A stretch of 57,563 nucleotides of DNA, taken from the NCBI GenBank assembly GCA_913055745.1, contig CAJXJZ010000002.1:1-57563 (forward strand), written 5' to 3'. The first letter of the stretch is position 1. Every line of letters starts with the position of its first letter. A model generated the notes under the pieces. The model saw nothing but the letters and a program-made list of their open reading frames with translations. It searched no databases and was not told where the DNA came from. Positions 12,312 to 35,651 of the stretch are shown here, in pieces. A program made the translations under genes and the position numbers. The DNA is from an uncultured bacterium. Its GTDB lineage: Bacteria > Hydrothermota > Hydrothermia > UBA1063 > CAJXJZ01.

Positions 12312-14990
12312 ATGCTTAAACAAAAACTGGGCAGATTTGAGATTAAAGAGTGGATAGGCGGGGGGCAGTTTTCTGATGTGTATCTTGCTATAGATACCAT
12401 TATAGATAAAGAATTTGCTTTAAAGATACCAAGACAACGAGCGAAGGAGATAGATATGCTAAAGCAGGAGGCAAAGATCCTCGCCTCATTGGAACATCCA
12501 AATATTGTAAGGTTTTATTCCATAGAAGAGTTTGTGGATAGAATTGTTCTTGTCATGGAATATATAAGAGGCCAATCTCTAAAATCGTATCTTGAGAGGG
12601 AAAGGCGGATTTCTGTTGATAGGAGCCTTTCTATAATTAAGATGGTATTGGAGGGTGTGGGATATGCACATAGACAGGGCATATTACATAGAGATATAAA
12701 ACCTGAAAACATTCTTATTACCGATGAGGGAAAGGTTAAGATCACGGATTTCGGTCTTGCAAAGATTAAATCAGAACTTTCCATGTCTCTTTCTGTCGCA
12801 GGAACACCACTATATATGTCTCCTGAGGCATGGAAAGGAGAATATGATAAAAGAAGCGATATATATTCCATTGGTGCTATATTGTATGAAATGTTATCAG
12901 GGATGCCTCCATATGAAGGTGCATCCTTTGAAGAGTTGAGGCACAAGATACTTCATGGCAAGTTAAGAAAAATAAGAGGGATTCCTCCAAATCTCTGGAT
13001 AGCCATAGAAAAGGCGTTGGCAAAGGACCCTGGTGTTAGATTTAGGTCATGCGAAGATTTTTATAGGGCTCTTGGGTCTGGTGGTTATATGCTGGAGATT
13101 AATGACCTGGTTACAGACGAGGGTAAAAAAAGTGAAATACTTTCAGGTCTTACACCTGTGCAAAGGGAGGCTGTAAAAAGTGGGAATGGTATTATTATTG
13201 TACTTGGAAGTGCAGGCACCGGTAAAACCTATACCCTTGCAAGGCGTATTGCTTATTTAATTAAGGAGAAGAAGGTTGAGCCAGAAAATATTTTAGCAAT
13301 AACCTTTACTGGTAAGGCGGCAGAGAACTTAAAACTTGAGGTTTCTTCGCTTGTTGGAGAACTTTTAACAAAAAAACTATGGATAGGTACCTTTCATCAG
13401 ATGGCAATGAGGATATTCCTAAGTGCCGCAGATAGGCTTGGGTTTGATGAGGAGAATCTTACCATTATATCACCCGAAGATGCACTCTCCATTATTGATA
13501 GCCTCTCCTCAGGGGGGAAGGCAAAATCAATAAAACGTGCGATAGATAGGGCTAAAACAAATCTTATAGGTCCAGAAGAATACAGAAGGTTTGCTAAATC
13601 CTCATGGGAGATGCATATTGCCTCTGTTTATACAAGTTATCAGAATCTTCTCAGGTCAAAGAACATGGTTGACTATGGTGATATTTTAATGTATGCAGTT
13701 TTGGTATTGGAAGAGTTTGATGATATAAGGGATGAGTTTACAAAAAGGTTTAAACATATCTTAGTAGATGAGTTTCAAGATATAGACCCTGCACAGTTTA
13801 GATTAATTGTCATTCTTTCAGAGAAGCATAAGCAACTATTCCTTGTTGGGGATGATGATCAGTCCATTTATGGATTTAGAGGAGCAAATCCAGAATTTAT
13901 CAAAGAACTGGAAAAATTTTACCCTACAAGGGTTAAAAGGTTTTATTTGAATACGAGTTTTAGGGTCCCTCAAAGGGTTATTGATGCCGCAGAAAGGCTC
14001 ATAAGTTATAACAAAAAGCGTATAAAAAAGCCCATGGTAAGTGTATCTTCTACAGAGGGTTCAATACAACTAAAAGAGGTAAATAGTGAGGAAGAAGAGG
14101 CTTCATGGGTTGCAGAGACCATTAAAAAAGAGGTAGAAAGCGGGCTTCAGTATGATGATATAAGCGTTATATATAGGGTTAATGCCTATTCTCGGTATTT
14201 TGAAGAGGTATTCATGAGGAGGGACATTCCATATAATTTAAAAACAGAGGGAGGTTTTTACGAGAGAGAAGAAATAAGGGCTCTAATAGGCATATTGAAA
14301 CTTGCAGAAAAAAGTGCATCCTTTTCTGATATTGAACTTATTACAAAGAGAATAATGGATGCATCACAAAAGGTTTCAAGGTATGTTGCATCAAAGATCA
14401 CAGGAAAAAGGACAAATATGAGGTTAAGTGGCATGGAAAAAGAACATGCAGAGTCCATTCTTAAATATCTTAAGAAGTTTTTAAGAAGTTATGATGAACA
14501 TAAAATAAAGGATTTGAGGCCTTTGGAGATTGTTGATAATTTTTTGGAAGATACTGGTTATTTGGGAAGACTTGAGAGGTCAAGGAGTTCTGCAAAATTG
14601 CAGGAGAGAGAGAATGTACTTGAATTTCTTGAGTTTATGACAAGGTATAAAACTGGAGAGCATAAAAAATTAGAGAATGATGTATCTCTTTTAAGGAAAT
14701 TAGGGATTGAGGCACAATCAGAGAGAGGGGTAAGGCTCATGACGGTTCATCAAGCAAAAGGTCTTGAGTTCCCATGTGTTTTTGTTGTAGGCCTTTATGA
14801 AGGCAGGTTCCCACTTCTAAGCGCCTTTGGAAATGAGGATAATCTGGAAGAAGAGAGAAGGCTGTTCTATGTGGCTATAACCAGAACTCAGGACAAACTA
14901 TATCTTTCCTATCCCAAATTTAGACACCATAAATATAGAAATGAACCATCTTTATTTATTACAGAGTTGTTTATGAAACCAGAAAAATAG
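12312..14990 (+). CDS. Ser/Thr protein kinase fused to UvrD/PcrA-type helicase
   Basis: 892 residues in one uninterrupted frame. Residues 8-255 are a complete Hanks-type kinase: Gly loop 15-20, ATP-anchoring Lys38, HRDIKPEN (126-133), DFG (146-148), SPE (170-172) and the final Arg in helix I. All catalytic residues are present. After a ~20-residue linker, residues ~278-890 are a superfamily 1 helicase: Q motif LTPVQREAV, Walker A GSAGTGKT (299-306), DEFQD, DDDQSIYGFRG, TVHQAKGLEF and AITRTQDKLYL. Both halves look active. The kinase may couple phosphorylation to DNA repair or replication restart, but this is inference. There is no transmembrane or PASTA segment, so it acts in the cytosol. It is single-gene, probably leaderless, and its stop is two bases from the convergent EamA stop. 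Confidence 0.9.
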   Translation: MLKQKLGRFEIKEWIGGGQFSDVYLAIDTIIDKEFALKIPRQRAKEIDMLKQEAKILASLEHPNIVRFYSIEEFVDRIVLVMEYIRGQSLKSYLERERRISVDRSLSIIKMVLEGVGYAHRQGILHRDIKPENILITDEGKVKITDFGLAKIKSELSMSLSVAGTPLYMSPEAWKGEYDKRSDIYSIGAILYEMLSGMPPYEGASFEELRHKILHGKLRKIRGIPPNLWIAIEKALAKDPGVRFRSCEDFYRALGSGGYMLEINDLVTDEGKKSEILSGLTPVQREAVKSGNGIIIVLGSAGTGKTYTLARRIAYLIKEKKVEPENILAITFTGKAAENLKLEVSSLVGELLTKKLWIGTFHQMAMRIFLSAADRLGFDEENLTIISPEDALSIIDSLSSGGKAKSIKRAIDRAKTNLIGPEEYRRFAKSSWEMHIASVYTSYQNLLRSKNMVDYGDILMYAVLVLEEFDDIRDEFTKRFKHILVDEFQDIDPAQFRLIVILSEKHKQLFLVGDDDQSIYGFRGANPEFIKELEKFYPTRVKRFYLNTSFRVPQRVIDAAERLISYNKKRIKKPMVSVSSTEGSIQLKEVNSEEEEASWVAETIKKEVESGLQYDDISVIYRVNAYSRYFEEVFMRRDIPYNLKTEGGFYEREEIRALIGILKLAEKSASFSDIELITKRIMDASQKVSRYVASKITGKRTNMRLSGMEKEHAESILKYLKKFLRSYDEHKIKDLRPLEIVDNFLEDTGYLGRLERSRSSAKLQERENVLEFLEFMTRYKTGEHKKLENDVSLLRKLGIEAQSERGVRLMTVHQAKGLEFPCVFVVGLYEGRFPLLSAFGNEDNLEEERRLFYVAITRTQDKLYLSYPKFRHHKYRNEPSLFITELFMKPEK

Positions 14991-18039: not shown

Positions 18040-18058
18040 GAAAATGATTTTAATTATT
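18040..18058. promoter_or_regulatory. Fur-box-like site upstream of feoA
   Basis: GAAAATGATTTTAATTATT agrees with the 19-base Fur consensus at 14 positions. It lies immediately upstream of the feoA -35 box and runs nine bases into the 3' end of mgtE. It is weaker than the site at 10399, but its place before an iron-uptake operon supports it. Confidence 0.5.
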
Positions 18059-19417
18059 TTTCAAAAGTAGTGTTGCAAGAGTAAAATAGGTTAAAAGTCC
18101 TGTGATGTCAACTACGGTGGTTATAAGTGGGCTGGATGATACGGCAGGGTCGATTTTTATTATGCGAAATAGTAGTGGGAGTAAAAGTCCTATGGTATCT
18201 GAGAGTACAATAACCAAGAATAGGGATAATGATACAATGATCGCCACATGTATTGAATTACTTACAAGTTGCGCAATTATAAACCCTACTATGGCAAGGG
18301 GCAGGCCCAGGACAAATGATGTTAGTATTTCATGGATTATTACTTTGCCTATTTTCTTTTCATTAAATTCTCCAGTTGCGAGAGCCCTTACAATGAGCGT
18401 TACGGCCTGTGAGCCAACATTCCCACCTGTATCTGTAAGCATTGGGATAAAGAAGGCTAAAGAAACAACGGCCGAAAGTGTTTCATCAAATCCTTTTAAG
18501 ACAGAACTTGATGCTACCTCTGCTACGAGGAGTCCTAATAACCATGGTATTCTTTTTTTGACCCTTTCCAATGGCGATAACCTGAGGTACTCTTCTTCTA
18601 TTTCTGGTGCTTCAACTGCAGCCATTTTATAAATATCCTCTGTTGCCTCCTGTTCCATTATATCAAGAACATCGTCTACTGTAATGATCCCTAAGAGTTT
18701 ATTCTCACTGTCAACCACAGGAATGGATATAAGGTCGTATTTTTTAATGAGATTTGCTGCTTTTTCTCTGTCATCCTGTGCCCTAACATATACAGGATTC
18801 TTTTCCATTATTTCTTTTATTTTAACATCACCCTTTGAAAGTACAAGTGACTTTAAATCCACTTTTCCAATAAGTTTTTCATCTTTATCAAGAACATATA
18901 TATCGTAAATAGTCTCCACTTCCTCTGATACCGCTCTTATCTTTTGTATAACCTCATCAACTGTCATATCCTCTTGTACATTTAAAACATCAGGGGTCAT
19001 TGCCCTACCAACAGAATCAGGCGGATAGTTGAGGAGTGTTAATGTATGTTCTCTTTCTTCAGGGGAAAGTTTTAATAGAAGTTGTTTTACCACCTCTGGA
19101 GGAAGTTCGTCAAATAGGAGTGCTCTGTCATCTGGGTCCATATCTTCAAGAAGTGTGATCGTTTCGTTGCTTGATAGGTATTTTAAAAGTTTTTGTTGGT
19201 CTTCAAAGTAAAGTTCACTGAAAACAATTGCAGCCTCATGTTTATCTAATAGTCTAAACAAAAGCGCCTTTTCTGCGTGTGAAAACTCTTCAAGTGATAA
19301 AAGGTCTGCAATATCTTGCGGCTTAAGATGCTTTAAAAAGTCTTTTAACTCTTCTAATTCTTTTTCTTTTATAAATTCTTTTATATCGGGTATAAGTACC
19401 CTCTTTATATCAAGCAT
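18050..19417 (-). CDS. mgtE: Magnesium transporter MgtE
   Basis: 455 residues with the full MgtE layout. There is an N-terminal superhelical MgtE_N domain (~20-125, LLEDMDPDDRALLFDELPPE). A pair of CBS domains follows (~135-255), then a plug helix and five membrane helices (~285-455) with the TDTGGNVGSQAVT pore segment typical of the family. It is a Mg2+ channel gated by cytosolic Mg2+ through the N and CBS domains. No Shine-Dalgarno site precedes the ATG, which lies seven bases after the stop of the upstream lipoprotein gene, so it may be translated by coupling. No M-box-type leader is possible in so short a gap. Confidence 0.95.
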   Translation of the reverse strand: MLDIKRVLIPDIKEFIKEKELEELKDFLKHLKPQDIADLLSLEEFSHAEKALLFRLLDKHEAAIVFSELYFEDQQKLLKYLSSNETITLLEDMDPDDRALLFDELPPEVVKQLLLKLSPEEREHTLTLLNYPPDSVGRAMTPDVLNVQEDMTVDEVIQKIRAVSEEVETIYDIYVLDKDEKLIGKVDLKSLVLSKGDVKIKEIMEKNPVYVRAQDDREKAANLIKKYDLISIPVVDSENKLLGIITVDDVLDIMEQEATEDIYKMAAVEAPEIEEEYLRLSPLERVKKRIPWLLGLLVAEVASSSVLKGFDETLSAVVSLAFFIPMLTDTGGNVGSQAVTLIVRALATGEFNEKKIGKVIIHEILTSFVLGLPLAIVGFIIAQLVSNSIHVAIIVSLSLFLVIVLSDTIGLLLPLLFRIIKIDPAVSSSPLITTVVDITGLLTYFTLATLLLKNN

Positions 19418-19424
19418 GAAAAAC

Positions 19425-20729
19425 TTAATAGTTCAAGAAATAGAGGTTATTTATTACATCTTGAGTTCCATTGCCTTGAAGGTCATTTTGTGGAACGCTT
19501 TCAGGCCCATCATAATGGTCTCCACCGGCAATAACTGCAACAATGCCTATTCTACCACTTGATTGTGTGCTAAGAAGTGATATTGGAATACCTGCCTCTA
19601 TTGCACCTTCTGTACCTGGCCCGAGAGTGCTTTTTACACTTATAGAATCTGTTAAATCCAATGTGGTACCTGTAGCATTAATCCTATGGAAAGCAGGAGA
19701 AACTTGACCATCAATCCATTGAGCCAGCATATACTGTGGTTTAAGGCTATCTGGGAAGATAAATTTTCTGGGGTAAAAGTCTACGCTATCCATATTGGCA
19801 TAGCCGAGAGAAGAATCACCTGGCTCTACATGAATATAAATTATAAGAGCATTATTGTCCACAATACCTTCTACGCCTAAGAATAGTGTGTCATTTTGGA
19901 CCTTGGCGTACAGTGAGCCTAAATCTCCACCACTTCCCCATGGGCTGTCTCCAATGGTATCATAAACAGCGGGCGCATCCCAGTCAGACAGGTCTCCATC
20001 AATGATAATTCCCGCTGCCTTTGAAAGAACCACATTTTCTACGATAGTATCATTACTTACTACAATGTTCTTTACAGTATCAGGTACGTATCCTCCAGCC
20101 TCAAACACCAGGGTGTATGTACCATTGGGAAGTGGAGATATGATATATGTTGAAGTGAGGGTATCTGACTGTGTCTCTGCGATTTTGCTGTTTTCATCAT
20201 AAACAGAGATTGTTGCCACAGGATAAGGTGGTGTATCTACATCGCTAAATCCTACGCTGCCTTTAATTGCACCCTGGGGGGCAGAATAAAAACTTATATT
20301 GTAGTAAAGGGTCTGTTCGTCAAAGGTAAATTTCCAATACCCGGGCTTATCAATGGGGCCTGCTGTTATGTGGTTGCCTGTGCCCGTGCAATTGGGTTCT
20401 GCGTAACCAGAAAGACCGCTGTCTGCCCCCTGCGTGCCAAAGGCAAGATCCCAGTTTCCATTGGGTACAATCTTGAACATTATGCTGTCCCTTGTGCCAG
20501 AAAAGTATTGTATTTTTTGCCATGTCCAGTCTGATACGAGTTCCATTTTTGTAGATGCGAGGTCTTCTAATGCCCATCCATTAAAATCACCAACCAGTTG
20601 CATTGTACGATATTGGGTTTTAAATGCCTCTCCTGGTGGATTTATGAGTATTTTCCCAGGCTCTTTTGCACATGAATTAAATACCAAGAAAACTATAAGA
20701 GTGATAGCCCCAAGATATTTTCTATACAT
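19425..20729 (-). CDS. Lipoprotein with starch-binding (X25-like), CarboxypepD-reg-like and CBM9/DOMON-like domains
   Basis: 434 residues. Signal peptide with lipobox FNSC (Cys20). Residues ~40-150 form an E-set/starch-binding-type domain: an LVGDFNGW strand, then FKIVPNGNWDLAFG and a closing YWKFTFDEQTLYYNI, closely like the X25 module of amylopullulanases. Residues ~155-235 are a carboxypeptidase-regulatory-like Ig domain (PLPNGTYTLVFEAGGY). Residues ~240-434 begin IIIDGDLSDWD, the usual opening of CBM9/glucodextranase C-terminal-type domains. No glycosidase domain is visible. It should be anchored in the outer membrane and bind alpha-glucan or a related polymer. Last gene of the surface operon; GGAGGT precedes the ATG. 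Confidence 0.7.
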   Translation of the reverse strand: MYRKYLGAITLIVFLVFNSCAKEPGKILINPPGEAFKTQYRTMQLVGDFNGWALEDLASTKMELVSDWTWQKIQYFSGTRDSIMFKIVPNGNWDLAFGTQGADSGLSGYAEPNCTGTGNHITAGPIDKPGYWKFTFDEQTLYYNISFYSAPQGAIKGSVGFSDVDTPPYPVATISVYDENSKIAETQSDTLTSTYIISPLPNGTYTLVFEAGGYVPDTVKNIVVSNDTIVENVVLSKAAGIIIDGDLSDWDAPAVYDTIGDSPWGSGGDLGSLYAKVQNDTLFLGVEGIVDNNALIIYIHVEPGDSSLGYANMDSVDFYPRKFIFPDSLKPQYMLAQWIDGQVSPAFHRINATGTTLDLTDSISVKSTLGPGTEGAIEAGIPISLLSTQSSGRIGIVAVIAGGDHYDGPESVPQNDLQGNGTQDVINNLYFLNY

Positions 20730-21090
20730 GATATCTTACCTCCAATTTTTTTAAAACAGGATAAAATCTTGCAAAATAGTATATCTGAAACAATAAATAT
20801 GGTATTACTTGCCTTTTATCATCAAAATATGCGGCAATAAATACCCCAGAAAAGGGGAAAACAAGGGGAAATAGGGCAATAATGTAAGATATGACATCCT
20901 TTGATATTTTAAGTTTTAGATGGTTTATAACAATGGATAATGACCTTATGGATAAAAAGAGCATGGCAACCAACATTAAAAAGAGTATATTGAAGTAGGC
21001 TGGAGGATTTGTATTATTTAGATGAACAAAGAGTGATGGGATATATAAAAACAGAGAAACAATGTTTGTTATATAAAATATCCTTAGCAT
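20722..21090 (-). CDS. Small four-helix membrane protein
   Basis: The start is taken at the ATG at 21090, which overlaps the stop of the upstream gene (TAATG). A longer frame from 21231 would be antisense-like overlap with the glycogen-binding lipoprotein and adds only polar sequence. The 122-residue product has four hydrophobic helices separated by short basic loops (HLKLKISKD, FDDKRQ). No family is recognised. Its position between two exported carbohydrate-binding lipoproteins, with overlaps on both sides, suggests it serves the same surface system. Confidence 0.55.
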   Translation of the reverse strand: MLRIFYITNIVSLFLYIPSLFVHLNNTNPPAYFNILFLMLVAMLFLSIRSLSIVINHLKLKISKDVISYIIALFPLVFPFSGVFIAAYFDDKRQVIPYLLFQIYYFARFYPVLKKLEVRYHV

Positions 21091-21491
21091 TATTCGACTC
21101 TGAGAAGTGAATTCTGAAATCCACCTGATTGAACTGTTTCTGGATTGGACGGGTCCAGATACCATGATGTGCCATTTACCACATACTTGTATTGATAATT
21201 TCCGCTTTTTATGGGAAGTATAAGGGTCCATATACCGTCTTTTGCTTTTCTATCCCCCTCTTTACCATCATCGTGCATCCTCCCAATGTGTGGATTAAAG
21301 GGCCCATCCTGTGTGCCACACCATCTGTTGAAATCACCACAAACATTGACGTATTTGGCAGATGGGGCATAAAATTCAAAAATTACGCCACCGGGTGTTT
21401 TGTGGGGGGCAGGAAGACGAGGCTTTACCTCTTTTATTAAAACACATCCAGAAATGAAAATTACCACGCTTAGAAGGAGAGTTCTAACCAT
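21090..21491 (-). CDS. Lipoprotein with AMPK/CBM48-type glycogen-binding domain
   Basis: 133 residues: signal peptide with lipobox FISGC (Cys16), then one glycogen-binding domain filling the rest. It shows the family hallmarks: APSAKYVNVCGDFNRW (first sugar-stacking Trp), YQYKYVVNG (conserved Lys), a second Trp in NGTSWYLDP, and the Asn near the end (FQNSLLRV). The ligand-binding residues known from AMPK beta are therefore retained. An insertion (PFNPHIGRMHDDGKEGD) lies between the first strands. It should display one alpha-glucan-binding module on the outer membrane. It overlaps both neighbours. Confidence 0.8.
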   Translation of the reverse strand: MVRTLLLSVVIFISGCVLIKEVKPRLPAPHKTPGGVIFEFYAPSAKYVNVCGDFNRWCGTQDGPFNPHIGRMHDDGKEGDRKAKDGIWTLILPIKSGNYQYKYVVNGTSWYLDPSNPETVQSGGFQNSLLRVE

Positions 21492-23284
21492 AGTCTTATC
21501 TCCTTTGTATTACTTATGTCTTTTTCTCCCTGTTCTATTGTACCAGCAATGCCTCTAAAATTGTTCTCAAGTTGTGTTAAATTAACACCTTTTGAGGATA
21601 AGTATTCTCTTCTTTCTGTGTATTCATCAAGCAGGTTGTATGGATAAAAGCCATAACCTGCCTTTGCTATCATGTATTGAGAAAATCTATAAGAGATTTG
21701 TATGTAGTGGTCAAAGAAGTCTCTATCAGTGTTTAAGTATGATGATTTTATATGAAAATAACGCAGGTCATAATCCAAAAATAGCCGTTTTATTGGTAAT
21801 GTGAGTTGTAAAATACACTCATCACTTCTCGGTGGTTGGTTTATAGCGTACCTTGCTGTTTGCATGGACAATCTCATTTTTAAAAGAGAAAGTATGTCAA
21901 CATTACCTTTAGCATACAGTGTTGTATATCTATCATAACCCAGTAGTGGGTATTCTATATAAGGTAGCCTCTGTATGTCAAACATCTTAAATAGGGCATC
22001 CCACTTAGTGGAATTTTTATGGGCAAAGAGGAAATGCTCAGAAAGACCTGCCTCAAAATGCCTTCTTTTTATTGAAATACCTGTTTTTAGATTGCTAAAT
22101 CCTTTTCCATACAGAGGGACAAAGATGCTATCAAACTTATGGTGTTCAAGATCCAAAAAGGCTGCCAGTTTTTCATTGCCATAAATGGCTTTGAATTTAT
22201 ACCATTTTCCTATGTTCCACGACTTATTTATAGGGCTTTGTTGTGATTTTGTGCCATCTACATCGTAAAAGTTGGCTCTCTTTTTATCAAGGCCTTCAAG
22301 AAACTGAAATCTTACGCTGTTTTTATCGCCAAACTCGATGGAATAGGCATATCGGTCGTCATAGGTATTGAAATGAAGAAGGGTTGTATCATTTATCCTC
22401 TCGCTATCAGGGGATACAACCTGATATTCTACATTGTTCCCATGCGAAATATAAAGACCTAATCCCGCATAAAAATTTGCAAAATCCTTAGACAATCTTA
22501 GAAAAGCAAGGTCTCTGCCTGTGGATATCTCATTTGAGTATAAAAATGTTATATGTGATACCTTTGGTTGTATCTCCCAGAGAATGCCTTGCTCTCCTCT
22601 TCCTAATGGATAGGAAAACTCATTTACCTTGCCCACAAGTGTAATGGGGTCAGGACTTTCATAGGCAAACATATTATAGAAAGATAGAATATGGAGATGT
22701 CCTTTTTCAAAGTTGAGCCTTGCCCGTTCAAAGTAAAACGGTATCTGATGGGTGGATGGGTCCTGCCCCTGTTGGGTATTGTAATGAAGTATTGCGAGGA
22801 GATTCGCCTCATCCTTGATGTTTACCTTTACATTCATCCTTACATCGGTTTCTGTATTCATAAGGCGATAATGGTTCGTGGAGTCTTTATCCGCATTTAC
22901 AAAACCCTTTGCTTTGGCACCGAATGTTACATATGAATTCATCGGTGTGTTATTTGACATACGAGGAGGTAAAACCCTAAAATCTTGAGCAACCTTGATT
23001 ACTGAATTTCTATAAGGCCCTTCTGTTATAGGATTTGTAGGGTCCTCTACATATTTACCGTCAACAAAAAACTTGTATTGATATTTGCCAGGAGCAAGTG
23101 GTATTACAACGCTCCATAACCCTTCAGCGTTTTTCTTCATTGGCGTTTTAGATGTGTTCCAGTTATTGAAATCACCAACGAGATATACGCTATTTGCATC
23201 TGGTGCAAAGTATGTAAATTCCACGCCATCCTTTGTACCTTGAGGCAAAGAAACCAACAAAAAAACTAATGCCTTAACTAACAT
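21470..23284 (-). CDS. Glycogen-binding domain fused to an outer-membrane beta-barrel
   Basis: 604 residues. After a short signal peptide, residues ~20-100 are a glycogen-binding domain very like the AMPK beta module (YLVGDFNNW, YQYKFFVDGK, DPTNPITEGPYRNSVIKV); the second stacking Trp is replaced by Tyr. Residues ~115-604 are barrel-like alternating strands ending in LWLELSF, the terminal Phe typical of outer-membrane proteins. No SusC, TonB-box or Omp85 motif is visible. The binding module precedes the barrel, so it would lie in the periplasm or be threaded out. Inference: a glucan-specific porin or surface receptor. The gene overlaps the next gene by 22 bases. Confidence 0.75.
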   Translation of the reverse strand: MLVKALVFLLVSLPQGTKDGVEFTYFAPDANSVYLVGDFNNWNTSKTPMKKNAEGLWSVVIPLAPGKYQYKFFVDGKYVEDPTNPITEGPYRNSVIKVAQDFRVLPPRMSNNTPMNSYVTFGAKAKGFVNADKDSTNHYRLMNTETDVRMNVKVNIKDEANLLAILHYNTQQGQDPSTHQIPFYFERARLNFEKGHLHILSFYNMFAYESPDPITLVGKVNEFSYPLGRGEQGILWEIQPKVSHITFLYSNEISTGRDLAFLRLSKDFANFYAGLGLYISHGNNVEYQVVSPDSERINDTTLLHFNTYDDRYAYSIEFGDKNSVRFQFLEGLDKKRANFYDVDGTKSQQSPINKSWNIGKWYKFKAIYGNEKLAAFLDLEHHKFDSIFVPLYGKGFSNLKTGISIKRRHFEAGLSEHFLFAHKNSTKWDALFKMFDIQRLPYIEYPLLGYDRYTTLYAKGNVDILSLLKMRLSMQTARYAINQPPRSDECILQLTLPIKRLFLDYDLRYFHIKSSYLNTDRDFFDHYIQISYRFSQYMIAKAGYGFYPYNLLDEYTERREYLSSKGVNLTQLENNFRGIAGTIEQGEKDISNTKEIRLWLELSF

Positions 23285-23299
23285 AACACACTCTCCTTG

Positions 23300-24709
23300 T
23301 TAAAACCAGTATTTTAATAGTATCTTAAATCTGTCTCTGATTCTTTGATAGGGGAAATCTGATACATCAGGGTCATTTACAAGGTCTGCATCCGTGGCAG
23401 AAGGGTCCCCATATTCAATAAATAACTCACTGTTTGTAAATTTCCTAATGGCGAGTTGTGCAAAAAACGAATTCCAGTTTAGGCCTTGTCCATTACCTAA
23501 GGCTCCTCGCATATAAAACTGCAACCAGTTTGTAAGGTTTATCCACATCTCAGTGCCTAAAATTGAGCGTTGTCCTATGGAAAAATCATTATCCTTTCCA
23601 TGCACATTAATCCCTATGTCTTTTATTTTATATTGAAGTTTGACCTTCATCCGCGGGTTTTCTCCTTGTATCTGGAAGAAAACATGCCTCCAATCACCCT
23701 TTTTGTCCACCGTCCTTTCTGCAAATATCTTAGCGGATACGCCCTTTCTAAATTCTGTGTATATCTCTGCATAATTCCATGAAACGGTAAAGGGTTTAGC
23801 CAGTAGTACAGGATAGTCATACCATGTTTTGTATCTATTTGTCTTATACAGGATGTTTATAGCCTTGTATGGCACAAGATACAATATCTCACCGTAGAAT
23901 CCTTCTCTTCCAAATTCGTGGTCAAATCCTGGATTAAATTTATTAGACATCTCATCAATGAAGTATTTTCCATAATTATAATAAGAACCTGAAATATTAA
24001 AACCCTTGAAGTATATTCTTCGTAACTCAATGGTTAGGGCGTCCTTCTCATGCTGTTTAACTGTATCGCCTGCCGGTTGATTTGGGTGAATAGAAGTTGC
24101 CATTTCTGATGAGAGATAAAGGGTTCTAAAAATATGTAGCCTCAGGTAAAGAGAGTTAATTTTATTGTAAGACGGTTCTTTGCCACCACGCCAGTCCTTT
24201 TTCATATACATATAACTCAAGGTTAGAGTTTTTCCAAAGTTTCTACCAAGCCTCCCTATGTATGCTTCTCCATTCCAACTTTTGTATTTAGAAGAAAGCA
24301 TTGTACCAAAAAAGCCATAGGTATCCCAAAAGTCCCATCTTATGCCCTCACCCTTTGGACCAAAATTGTCGTCTTTTAATCTATCCTGATTGACAAGGTA
24401 TAATAGGGGGCTCTGTACCCAATATCTATCCTCTCTTGCAAAAAGAGCAAGGCTATGATGAGCACCGTTTACCTGAATATGACCCTGATTAAAGAAGAAC
24501 TGAGAGTTATTTGAGTTGGAGAGTGCATTGAATGAGAAAAAGACTTGACCATAATTAGTAGGATGCAGAGTTATCTTAAATTCAATGTAGTTTTTGGGAT
24601 TGTAGAGGTTCCAATAAACAGGGTTCTGCTCCTTTTCCGTATAAAATTCGGATTCAAGATACCCATTAAAGGACACTGGAAACAAAAATAAAAGCATCGC
24701 AAAAAGCAT
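23300..24709 (-). CDS. Outer-membrane beta-barrel protein
   Basis: 469 residues: signal peptide (~1-15), then amphipathic strands rich in Tyr, Trp and Phe, and a C-terminal LLKYWF. The periodic pattern and the length fit a porin-like barrel of about 18-20 strands. No family is recognised. It is the first gene of the five-gene glycan-binding operon and lies 16 bases before the glycogen-binding barrel gene. The start codon lies six bases after a -10-like TAATCT and lacks a ribosome site, so the operon message may be leaderless. Confidence 0.65.
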   Translation of the reverse strand: MLFAMLLFLFPVSFNGYLESEFYTEKEQNPVYWNLYNPKNYIEFKITLHPTNYGQVFFSFNALSNSNNSQFFFNQGHIQVNGAHHSLALFAREDRYWVQSPLLYLVNQDRLKDDNFGPKGEGIRWDFWDTYGFFGTMLSSKYKSWNGEAYIGRLGRNFGKTLTLSYMYMKKDWRGGKEPSYNKINSLYLRLHIFRTLYLSSEMATSIHPNQPAGDTVKQHEKDALTIELRRIYFKGFNISGSYYNYGKYFIDEMSNKFNPGFDHEFGREGFYGEILYLVPYKAINILYKTNRYKTWYDYPVLLAKPFTVSWNYAEIYTEFRKGVSAKIFAERTVDKKGDWRHVFFQIQGENPRMKVKLQYKIKDIGINVHGKDNDFSIGQRSILGTEMWINLTNWLQFYMRGALGNGQGLNWNSFFAQLAIRKFTNSELFIEYGDPSATDADLVNDPDVSDFPYQRIRDRFKILLKYWF

Positions 24710-24744: not shown

Positions 24745-24767
24745 AAACTTAAAATTTAATTTTATTA

Positions 24768-25098
24768 GAGGGGGGCTGTAAGCCGGGTTCTGTCAAGGGA
24801 GGTCATTTATCTGTACAGGAGATTGCTCTCCTGTCTACTGCGGCCTACCTGGGACCATTGGCCGGGCCAGCCGGTCCCTTTTTGGCCTTGCTCCGGGTGG
24901 GGGTTGCCACGCGTAAGGTTGCCCCTACGCGTCGTGGGCTCTTACCCCACGGTTTCACCTTAGCCTGTGCCAAAGGCCATCGGCTGTCTCGTTTCTGTGA
25001 CCCTATCCGTCGCCTTGCAGCGCCCACCTGTTAGGTGGCACCCTGCCCTCTGGAGCCCGGACTTTCCTCACCTTGCGGCGCGACCTCCTGCCCCCCTC
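24768..25098 (-). ncRNA. rnpB: RNase P RNA, bacterial type A
   Basis: About 331 nt. On the minus strand it begins GAGGGGGGC and ends GCCCCCCTC, forming helix P1. It carries the conserved GAGGAAAGTCCGGGCTCC near the 5' end and GACAGAACCCGGCTTACAG near the 3' end, which pair to form P4. An internal GGGTCACAGAAACGAGACAG stretch is also typical. It is the catalytic RNA that trims tRNA 5' leaders (and pre-tmRNA). It is far more GC-rich than the surrounding genes, which suits a thermophile. A consensus promoter lies just upstream. Confidence 0.95.
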
Positions 25099-25111
25099 TT
25101 AGATTGTATTA

Positions 25112-28757: not shown

Positions 28758-29993
28758 TTGATAAAAATCGTTCTTTTTGCCTCCCTTTATCTCTCTTCCT
28801 TAGAGATAAAGGGAGGTTTTTTATTACCGCAGTTTACAAAAAAGAGTTTTATTAAAGCATTTGAAAGGGCAAGGGTCGAACCTGACACCCTGATTGATAG
28901 TTTGTTTAAACTATATGAAGATATCGGTTTTTTCAATGTCAAATTTGATGTGGAGATTGATACAATTGATAGCGATACCGCTTGCATGAAAATTAAAGTG
29001 ATAACCCCACATCTTCCTGTTATAGATGAGGTGGCACTTTTGGGAGTAAGATTGCCTTTTTTCATATTAAACACTTATTTTCCCTTTAAGAAAAAGGTCT
29101 TTAGAAGGAAAAGAGTTTTGGAGAGTTTTAGAATACTTGAAAATTTAGGCATTATAAAAGATGCTCAATATTATTTTGTTCCATCATCGCTTGAAAATCA
29201 CTATACTCTTAAAATTAATGCTCCCCCAGCCTTTGAATCTTTTTATTTAAATCTAAAAAAGGGTATTGGTGAGGGCCTCTCTGGTATTGTCAGTCTCTCT
29301 CATCCCAGTTTATTGGGGACTGGATTAGGGCTTAGTACATCTTTGGGGGTGGATAATGGTAAAATATCCCATTACAATGTAAAAGGTACTTTTCTTCTAC
29401 CATTTATTAGAGGTGTGATGTTAAAGGTTGAAGGTTTGGAAATAGATGATTCCATTAAAACCGTGGAAAAGATGGGAGAGATTTCAATGTGGGGCGTGCG
29501 TAGTGGAGTATCCGTAGGACTGGGAGAGTTTAATACCTCATTTTTTACCTCTTTTAAACTGTTTGCATATGAGAAGGCATGGAGAATGGCACTTGGACTT
29601 GAGAAAAAGGGTGGATGGATTATGTTTCAACATACGGGATTTAGGGATAAGTTTGGGGTAAGTATGGAGCAGGGCTTTATAATTCCAAATACTTATCACT
29701 ACATTTTGCTAAGTAAGCCACTTCGTATGTTTGAGAGGTATGTGCCAGAGGAAACTCTTTTCCATTATTTTCTGTTAAGAACCCTTATTCCTTATAAAGA
29801 AAATGTCGGATTATTTATGGATTTTGGAGATATAGGCGGCGAGTATCTTCTGGATATAGGAGCAGGATACATAAAAAAAACATATGGCATATATGTGGGG
29901 TATTCTCTTGACAGAGGTTTTGGTAATATAAATATTGGCTTGGCAATAGGTGTGAAGAATTCCATATTTGAACGTTCTATTTATATACTTTAG
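28758..29993 (+). CDS. Small Omp85-like protein (POTRA-like domain plus barrel)
   Basis: 411 residues. An N-terminal signal-like stretch is followed by one or two POTRA-like units (~25-150: KLYEDIGFFNVKFDVEID, RVLESFRILENLGIIKDA, the latter typical of FtsQ/BamA/TamA POTRA helices). A shortened barrel of ~260 residues follows, opening with VSLSHPSLLGTGLGLSTSLG. The LRGY-type motif is not obvious. At 411 residues it is half the length of BamA, closer to TamA-like or two-partner transporters. The best start is TTG at 28758, directly after the upstream stop; the ribosome site is weak and the start uncertain. The product probably inserts or secretes proteins at the outer membrane. Confidence 0.65.
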   Translation: MIKIVLFASLYLSSLEIKGGFLLPQFTKKSFIKAFERARVEPDTLIDSLFKLYEDIGFFNVKFDVEIDTIDSDTACMKIKVITPHLPVIDEVALLGVRLPFFILNTYFPFKKKVFRRKRVLESFRILENLGIIKDAQYYFVPSSLENHYTLKINAPPAFESFYLNLKKGIGEGLSGIVSLSHPSLLGTGLGLSTSLGVDNGKISHYNVKGTFLLPFIRGVMLKVEGLEIDDSIKTVEKMGEISMWGVRSGVSVGLGEFNTSFFTSFKLFAYEKAWRMALGLEKKGGWIMFQHTGFRDKFGVSMEQGFIIPNTYHYILLSKPLRMFERYVPEETLFHYFLLRTLIPYKENVGLFMDFGDIGGEYLLDIGAGYIKKTYGIYVGYSLDRGFGNINIGLAIGVKNSIFERSIYIL

Positions 29994-33854: not shown

Positions 33855-35354
33855 ATGTCCAAAAGACGCATTTTAACGCTTTATCATAAGGATTTAACAC
33901 TTTTCTTTAAAGGCAGAAGAAAAATAAGGCAAAAGGCCGAGATTCTTTATTTTCTAACACTTTTTGTAATCTCTTTTTTACTTGGCATTTTATATAGAAG
34001 GGTCAAAATACAAACAGGTGCCTTTGCTCTCACATTCACATTTTTTCTCTATCTTTTAATGAGTTTCATTTTTGAACTAAAACATTTCATTTTTTTAGAT
34101 GAAGATAGGAAAATAATAAAGAGACTCCCTGTCCTTGATAAGGAGTATTATACTTCAAAATCCCTGCTCATTTTAACCTTTGGTATTATTTTTACCACTA
34201 TTATACTATTGGGGCATTTTGTTGGAGCGTATATATTGGCACACATTGTTATTCCCATTCATAAAATGGCGTTTTGCCTTCTATTTAATTCGTTTTTTAG
34301 TATTGCATTTTCTATGTTTATATATGCCCTTTTGCTTATAATTTTTAAAAGTTCTACAAATGGTGATGTTGTTTCAAAAGTGCAGATAGCACTTGGCATA
34401 CTTTTTGGCTTGATATTTGCATTTGCGCCTAATCTTTCCCCTATTCTTGATGCCATAGATAGAGGCAATTTAGATGGGCATTTTTGGTTTACAATATTAC
34501 CCTTTACACAATTTGTTAAAGCCTCGTGGCATTTTAGTATAAAATCCATCTTAATTGCAACATTGTACATTATCTTTCCACTGTATTTTGCCGTACTTTT
34601 GGGTTTTGATGAGAAGGAAGTTAACATGCAGGATAATGTAAGAAGTTTTGATAGGTTTATCTTTGTAAGGGATAGGAAGAAGAGGAGTATCCACTTGCTC
34701 GTTTTAACACATATTACAAGGAGCAAGATAACAAAAAGAACCCTTATTGCCCCCACTGTAATAAATATGGTTGTTCTATTTATGTGGATTTTCAGTAAGA
34801 ATGCACAAAGCATTGTGTTTTTTGGAGTATGGACGCTTGTCTTTATGAGTGTGATATCCTATCTTGCTCTTTCCATAAGTGATTCATACAAGGCTTTTTG
34901 GATGTTGAAAAAAGCCCCAATGATAGATAAAGATGTGATAGCAAACGGAATAAACGCAGGATTTCTTTATATTGTTCTCCCTTATGGCTTTTTTGTATTT
35001 TTGGTCTTTCTACTTAAAGGTATATCCATTGCTATGGCCCCTCTTCCTATTTTGTATGGCCTTGTTTTGTGTTATTTCTTTATGCAATTACTCTTTATTG
35101 TAAGGCCCTGTATGCTCTTTTCAAGAGCAGGCTTTGAAAGAGGCATAAGTTCAATCAAAGAACTTGTTGTATCTTTCATTCTTGTACCTACGGCTGCAGG
35201 GCTTTTCAATTTTCTATATAAATTAGAATCTCACACTTTTTTGAAGATTGCCATAGGAGCATTCTTAATAATTGACATCTTTCTGAATAAAATAGTGAAA
35301 TATAATGGTGGAGGCGGCGGGAATCGAACCCGCGTCCGGTTGCCCGGCTCCTGA
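33855..35354 (+). CDS. ABC exporter permease, C-terminus encoded across the tmRNA 3' end
   Basis: 499 residues with about ten to twelve membrane helices and basic loops. It begins with a short polar segment (MSKRRILTLYHKDLTLFFKG), as ABC-2-type permeases often do. It is the partner of the ATPase one base upstream. The last ~15 residues (GGGGGNRTRVRLPGS) are the antisense reading of the tmRNA acceptor and T-arm: no stop occurs before the tmRNA gene, and the frame ends 49 bases inside it on the opposite strand. The final membrane helix ends just before this tail (IAIGAFLIIDIFLNKIV), so the tail is probably tolerated and not functional. Confidence 0.8.
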   Translation: MSKRRILTLYHKDLTLFFKGRRKIRQKAEILYFLTLFVISFLLGILYRRVKIQTGAFALTFTFFLYLLMSFIFELKHFIFLDEDRKIIKRLPVLDKEYYTSKSLLILTFGIIFTTIILLGHFVGAYILAHIVIPIHKMAFCLLFNSFFSIAFSMFIYALLLIIFKSSTNGDVVSKVQIALGILFGLIFAFAPNLSPILDAIDRGNLDGHFWFTILPFTQFVKASWHFSIKSILIATLYIIFPLYFAVLLGFDEKEVNMQDNVRSFDRFIFVRDRKKRSIHLLVLTHITRSKITKRTLIAPTVINMVVLFMWIFSKNAQSIVFFGVWTLVFMSVISYLALSISDSYKAFWMLKKAPMIDKDVIANGINAGFLYIVLPYGFFVFLVFLLKGISIAMAPLPILYGLVLCYFFMQLLFIVRPCMLFSRAGFERGISSIKELVVSFILVPTAAGLFNFLYKLESHTFLKIAIGAFLIIDIFLNKIVKYNGGGGGNRTRVRLPGS

Positions 35355-35651
35355 AAGCCCTACATGCTTAGCCCATGTTTATACTCTGACCCAGACCCAT
35401 GGGCAGGTCCCAGAGGTCAGAGCCTGACTTCCTTTTACCCTCTCTGTGACAGTCAGGATGCCACACAGAGGGCTTCCATCCTCTATGACGCCCTACCCGA
35501 AAGTGGATGGAGCCTTTCGGGGGACGGGCTGCTCATTTATTAAGCAGCCAGTGCGTAATTTGTGTTGGCAGTTATTTCTGCAGGTTTAAGGGTCCTGCGC
35601 CCTGCATGCACTTTCAGGAGCCTTTTGGCCCCGTCGAGTCCGTACGCCCCC
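35306..35651 (-). ncRNA. ssrA: tmRNA
   Basis: 346 nt. The tRNA-like ends pair as GGGGGCG (5') with CGCCTCC (3'), the T-arm reads GGTTCGATTCC, and the terminal CCA is encoded. The tag reading frame on the minus strand is GCA GAA ATA ACT GCC AAC ACA AAT TAC GCA CTG GCT GCT, then TAA TAA. It gives AEITANTNYALAA with the ALAA degradation signal. tmRNA rescues stalled ribosomes and tags the nascent chain. It is GC-rich like rnpB. Its 3' end overlaps the permease gene by 49 bases. Confidence 0.97.

Follow-up and report, generated by a model that had tools for sequence, protein, structure and literature searches.

The window analysed here is a 57,563-nucleotide stretch from the genome of an uncultured bacterium of the hydrothermal-vent phylum WOR-3/Hydrothermota (contig CAJXJZ010000002.1 of GenBank assembly GCA_913055745.1), and our subject is a five-gene operon that occupies positions 24709 to 19425 of it on the minus strand. 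The genes of the operon, together with the most conserved segment of the first, are as follows.

23300..24709, minus strand: A469, an outer-membrane beta-barrel with a signal peptide and the C-terminus ...LLKYWF
24353..24436, minus strand: residues 92-119 of A469 (the REDRYWVQSPLLYLVNQDRLKDDNFGPK region), its most conserved segment, from an alignment and from DSSP of the structural model
21470..23284, minus strand: B604, with a CBM48/AMPK domain at about residues 18-100, a low-confidence linker at 107-147 and a C-terminal beta-barrel at about 147-604
21090..21491, minus strand: C133, a lipoprotein with an ISGC lipobox, nearly the whole chain of which is a single CBM48 domain
20722..21090, minus strand: D122, a small hydrophobic membrane protein, judged by homologue alignment, junction sequence and hydropathy
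19425..20729, minus strand: E434, a lipoprotein with an FNSC lipobox and three domains, starch-binding-like at about 38-150, CarboxypepD_reg-like immunoglobulin (Ig) at 165-233 and CBM9-like at about 238-434

All five open reading frames were found where an earlier, sequence-only reading had put them. They are tightly packed: A469 and B604 are 15 bp apart, B604 and C133 overlap by 22 bp, the stop codon of C133 and the start codon of D share TAATG, and D and E434 overlap by 8 bp, with ribosome sites of the AAGGAG/GGAGG type 5' of B604, C133 and E434. The small membrane protein has its gene in the predicted place, but the start first listed for it, at 21231, proved wrong; that version, of 169 residues, would overlap C133, and we moved the start to the ATG at 21090 (122 residues) because homologues align only from about that position. 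The sequence-only reading had also proposed comparing the gene order with that of relatives, and WOR-3/Hydrothermota relatives share the order A-B-C-(D)-E: it is retained in three families (f1, f2 and f7) and, as A-B-C, in the distant family f25, while in f6 A469 lies apart from B604-C133. Within the genus the proportion of synonymous differences (pS) is 0.71-0.89, near saturation, against a nonsynonymous proportion (pN) of 0.06-0.30; on this sequence evidence the operon genes are under purifying selection. Since the order is conserved and pS is near saturation with pN low, these genes are not chance open reading frames. A469 occurs as a single copy per genome in 21 of the 147 genomes of the phylum. 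One pattern-based scan beyond the phylum matched WOR-3/Hydrothermota records and two others labelled only 'bacterium', and viral contigs gave no relative of B604.

That the operon encodes a predicted alpha-glucan-binding set together with barrels is well supported by the glycogen-binding domains of B604 and C133. Set against the Pfam curated cut-offs of 22.4 bits for CBM_48 (PF02922) and 26.8 bits for AMPK1_CBM (PF16561), B604 scores 57.6 bits (E 1.6e-15) and 51.4 bits (E 1.3e-13) and C133 scores 39.8 bits (E 5.7e-10) and 31.8 bits (E 1.7e-07), respectively; the N-terminal domain of B604 also matches AMPK beta1. The glucan-contact residues W100, K126, W133 and N150 of AMPK beta1 correspond in our alignment to W57, K102, W110 and N127 of C133, all of them invariant, and to W42, K71, Y78 and N93 of B604, where position 78 is W or Y among relatives. 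The sequence-only reading had held that sugar-stacking residues are kept in two of the three binding proteins, and indeed all four contact positions are retained in B604 and C133, both of which we predict to be alpha-glucan binders. The domain is thus the one known from the AMPK beta subunit, with its contact residues, the difference being its export here, as part of a lipoprotein and of an outer-membrane barrel protein.

The operon had been described as free of hydrolases, with no amylase, SusC or SusD. Inside the operon this description stands, since Pfam finds no amylase there and neither Sus component is present, and SusD was not found genome-wide either. For the genome as a whole (our genome-level statements rest on targeted searches) it is misleading, because a GH57 enzyme of secreted type that has two CBM48 domains is encoded elsewhere. 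A whole-genome AMPK1_CBM search returned two further domains, both in a single open reading frame on another contig, whose 1054-residue product combines two CBM48/AMPK domains with GH57 and Glucodextran_C and carries a plausible N-terminal signal. The second CBM48 of this enzyme and the CBM48 of B604 share 52% identity. The genome holds three more GH57 genes, one being a branching enzyme beside GlgA, and no GH13. How closely the enzyme and the operon travel together can be read from a sample of 60 genomes, 19 with A469 and 41 without it: GH57-CBM48 occurs in 15 of the 19 and in none of the 41 (Fisher p 7e-11, uncorrected for phylogeny). Only in family f4 is its gene near B604, at a distance of no more than about 6 kb.

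Two observations on enzymes in relatives may be added. The same-genus genome G003, in which GH57-CBM48 is missing, encodes a 659-residue GH13 amylase with an N-terminal CBM48 (L138:8219-10198, on G003:C100), and it is possible that the enzyme family has been swapped within one pathway. In f4, proteins of 1024-1030 residues with no family match are encoded between A469 and B604 (L085:9718-12792, L086:11195-14272 and L087:6662-9754); by eye their C-terminus resembles a sorting tail, and they are possibly a new enzyme. Assignment of the 1024-residue protein to GH57 on motifs seen by eye (HHGNQ, WIPER and GDDWEK) was supported neither by hhalign (prob 0.6, from a low-power alignment) nor by Pfam at E<=10.

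The operon is also tied to sugar transport. MalE-like, E434-like, A469 and B604 genes form one cluster in f4 and at L109, two distant families (L108 ends inside B604), and in order-level relatives from sister genera (L099 and L107) the operon is preceded, on its own strand, by genes for MalF, MalG, MalK, the trehalose-phosphate synthase/phosphatase OtsAB, and TreT. The genome of the window itself has a MalE match (E 3.5e-32), GlgA together with the GH57 branching enzyme and, on contig C10, MalF/MalG genes after the gene of a Glucodextran_C protein.

E434 supplies a further link. Its C-terminal domain shares homology (hhalign prob 99.9, E 3.6e-34) with a family of 325-residue proteins, the gene for which, in the neighbourhoods read, stands directly downstream of the gene for a MalE-like solute-binding protein. 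In the 60-genome sample this E434-like protein accompanies A469 in 18 of 19 genomes and, two marginal tail matches aside, is absent from all 41 that lack A469. The domains of E434 had been called X25-like and CBM9-like. X25 receives weak backing, and from relatives only: the window's E434 has no match, and the relative L119 reaches 20.4 bits against a cut-off of 27. The C-terminus matches neither CBM9 nor any other Pfam family at E<=10. Between the two, Pfam places the CarboxypepD_reg-like Ig domain at residues 165-233, which the sequence-only reading did not mention. One relative of E434 weakly matches SusF_SusE (E 0.0026); the E434-like family has as its best PDB match the CBM74 starch-binding module of Sas6, at a non-significant E of 0.065, and compared with Glucodextran_C it gives an hhalign prob of 10.8. 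Five of 11 MalE-adjacent family members (L111:9085-10062 and relatives) carry type IX sorting-like C-terminal tails, with E down to 7.5e-5, hinting at export to the surface.

Turning to the barrels, the AlphaFold2 model of A469 has 24 strands and a predicted local distance difference test score (pLDDT) of 82. In structure it comes closest to PapC, an usher pore of 24 strands (Z 20 over 380 residues, root-mean-square deviation 5.0); OprD/Occ, AlgE (Z 15), SusC-like proteins and LamB (Z 14.1) are also among the matches, with no clear functional relative among them. A469 has no Pfam match, and neither A469 nor the barrel part of B604 matches a porin family, the LamB maltoporin included, at E<=1, or a TonB plug or TonB receptor domain. 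We rejected A469 as a chaperone-usher: such a pore has a plug and N- and C-terminal periplasmic domains besides its 24-strand barrel, whereas the 469-residue chain of A469 is all barrel, with no space left for domains of that kind, and it has no Pfam usher match. Residues 92-119, the most conserved segment, are strandless in the model and lie between strands 5 and 6, where they could possibly form a lumen plug or constriction. The barrel part of B604 was modelled too, as the sequence-only reading had suggested, at a mean pLDDT of 67.7, which is too low to name a fold. Kinship between A469 and B604 was not detectable (hhalign prob 4.7).

The same reading had placed the binding domains at the cell surface. 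For B604 this is doubtful, since its CBM48 precedes the barrel; domains N-terminal to a barrel of the outer membrane are normally in the periplasm, and the CBM48 should therefore by default be on the periplasmic side. Lying there, it may draw chains inward instead of catching them outside. The lipoproteins C133 and E434 may face either side.

We now ask what the operon is for. The co-occurrence with GH57-CBM48 and the linkage to MalE and MalFGK make uptake of alpha-glucans or maltodextrins (from starch or glycogen) the best explanation, and we think it probable, though well short of assured, that the operon is the outer-membrane and periplasmic arm of such a pathway. The polymer would be cut by the secreted GH57 enzyme of amylase/pullulanase type, encoded elsewhere in the genome, and the products would cross the outer membrane through the A469 barrel, the B604 barrel or both. 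Glucan chains would be held at the membrane by the N-terminal CBM48 of B604, by C133 and by E434, and the MalE-like protein with its E434-like partner would then pass maltodextrins to a MalFG permease. Pore function, transport direction, the sides on which the domains lie, binding and the exact sugar are the parts of this picture that we infer. A more specific version, which we put forward tentatively and hold to be somewhat doubtful, is an uptake machine independent of SusC and SusD, in which a 24-strand A469 pore with its conserved internal segment works together with B604, the periplasmic glycogen-binding domain of B604 pulls maltodextrins inward by affinity, and E434 and MalE form a relay.

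Several points weigh against uptake of alpha-glucans. The co-occurrence counts ignore phylogeny. In the genome of the window the GH57 enzyme, MalE and MalFG are on contigs other than that of the operon. The protein that A469 most resembles in structure is an export pore, not a sugar porin, and CBM48 is found in a feruloyl esterase as well (a PDB match), so that specificity for alpha-glucans is not absolute. Finally, the sole cultured WOR-3 strain, sy37, showed no growth with starch or with maltose (PMC12285271), an observation that is telling only if sy37 carries the operon.

How might such a set of genes serve some other end? The barrels could secrete or tether an alpha-glucan made by the cell itself, as extracellular storage, capsule or matrix, with the CBM48 and E434 lipoproteins retaining it. 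The likeness of A469 to big export pores (PapC, and AlgE at Z 15) would suit this, as would the trehalose synthesis genes upstream in sister genera, the lack of an enzyme in the operon itself and the frequency of the type IX sorting tail in the E434-like partner family. However, the linkage is to a MalE-like protein and a MalFGK importer, a secreted-type GH57 with two CBM48 domains co-occurs, and no alpha-glucan polymerase gene was seen beside the operon in the neighbourhoods read, all of which leave export or anchoring improbable. The sequence-only reading had allowed for a storage-polymer or matrix-anchoring system; the MalE-like neighbours, with MalFGK in sister genera, favour nutrient uptake over storage or anchoring. 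That reading had also considered that relatives might link these domains to peptidoglycan or lipid, and the links we found are to glucan enzymes and sugar transport.

Less probable still is that the proteins serve adhesion only, as a tether for starch granules or glycogen at the cell surface, comparable to the Sas6 protein of Ruminococcus bromii, with the barrels acting as anchors that transport nothing. The presence of several binding domains and the top, if non-significant, PDB match of the E434-like family to the CBM74 of Sas6 speak for it, but there are two separate large barrels, A469 is among the best conserved proteins while having no binding domain, an anchor would need less than a 24-strand pore, and the MalE linkage speaks against it too. 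Equally unlikely is a ligand other than an alpha-glucan, for example an oligosaccharide with beta linkages or one of plant hemicellulose. Although the PDB matches include a CBM48 fused to a feruloyl esterase and the outer domains of E434 have no significant family assignment, the contact residues of AMPK type are conserved, the CBM48 shares 52% identity with its counterpart in the GH57 enzyme, and the GH57 activities so far known are mainly on alpha-glucans.

Returning to alpha-glucan uptake, we can compare the operon with known systems. As in the Sus system of Bacteroidetes, a barrel and several starch-binding lipoproteins stand together in one operon, whereas here the enzyme is a GH57 encoded away from the operon in a genome that has no GH13. 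A SusD/RagB search was negative in the genome of the window and positive in a Bacteroides control, and three TonB plug proteins are encoded elsewhere in the genome, outside the operon. With the enterobacterial Mal system (LamB, MalE and MalFGK) it shares MalE-like and MalFG-type components, which in relatives cluster with the barrels or the operon; unlike LamB, neither WOR-3 barrel has a porin-family match, A469 is predicted to have 24 strands against 18, and LamB has no counterpart to the CBM48-barrel fusion of B604. GH57 with Glucodextran_C, and TreT and MalFGK in sister genera, recall the GH57 amylopullulanase and trehalose/maltose ABC (MalEFG-TreT) clusters of the Thermococcus/Thermotoga type; the outer-membrane set described here is not known from such cells. 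Thus the system would be Sus- or Mal-like in function, yet it fits neither definition, having no SusD, no TonB plug in its barrels and no LamB match. Its parts are recombined, and both barrels fall outside described families. Our literature searches did not find a description of this operon, and a WOR-3 genome survey makes no mention of starch genes.

Some neighbouring features of the window complete the description. Downstream of the operon, at a distance of 7 bp, is the following gene, identified by Pfam.

18050..19417, minus strand: MgtE magnesium transporter

In a comparison of neighbourhoods MgtE adjoins the operon in this genus only, and it is probably a passenger rather than an operon partner. 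Upstream, on the same strand, lies a class A RNase P RNA (24763-25099, minus), and near the operon, also on the same strand, a transfer-messenger RNA gene (35306-35651, minus). A 411-residue protein with a TTG start and no Pfam match (28758-29993, plus strand) looks by eye like an outer-membrane barrel with N-terminal POTRA-like repeats. An 892-residue open reading frame (12312-14990, plus strand) fuses a Ser/Thr kinase domain (9-221, E 3e-55) to a UvrD/Rep-type helicase (280-867); such a kinase-DNA helicase fusion is unusual, and a homologue of the helicase part lies at the end of L097.

More generally, little is known of how large glucans pass Gram-negative outer membranes beyond Bacteroidetes and Proteobacteria. 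The operon adds two barrel families that lack any Pfam model, one of which carries a fused glycogen-binding domain, and it does so in a phylum from which a single cultured strain is reported; its domains are small and probably thermostable. On our analysis, starch or glycogen should serve as food for part of WOR-3, at vents perhaps in the form of detritus or dead cells. If the machine independent of SusC and SusD proves true, it would be the main route of alpha-glucan uptake in part of WOR-3.

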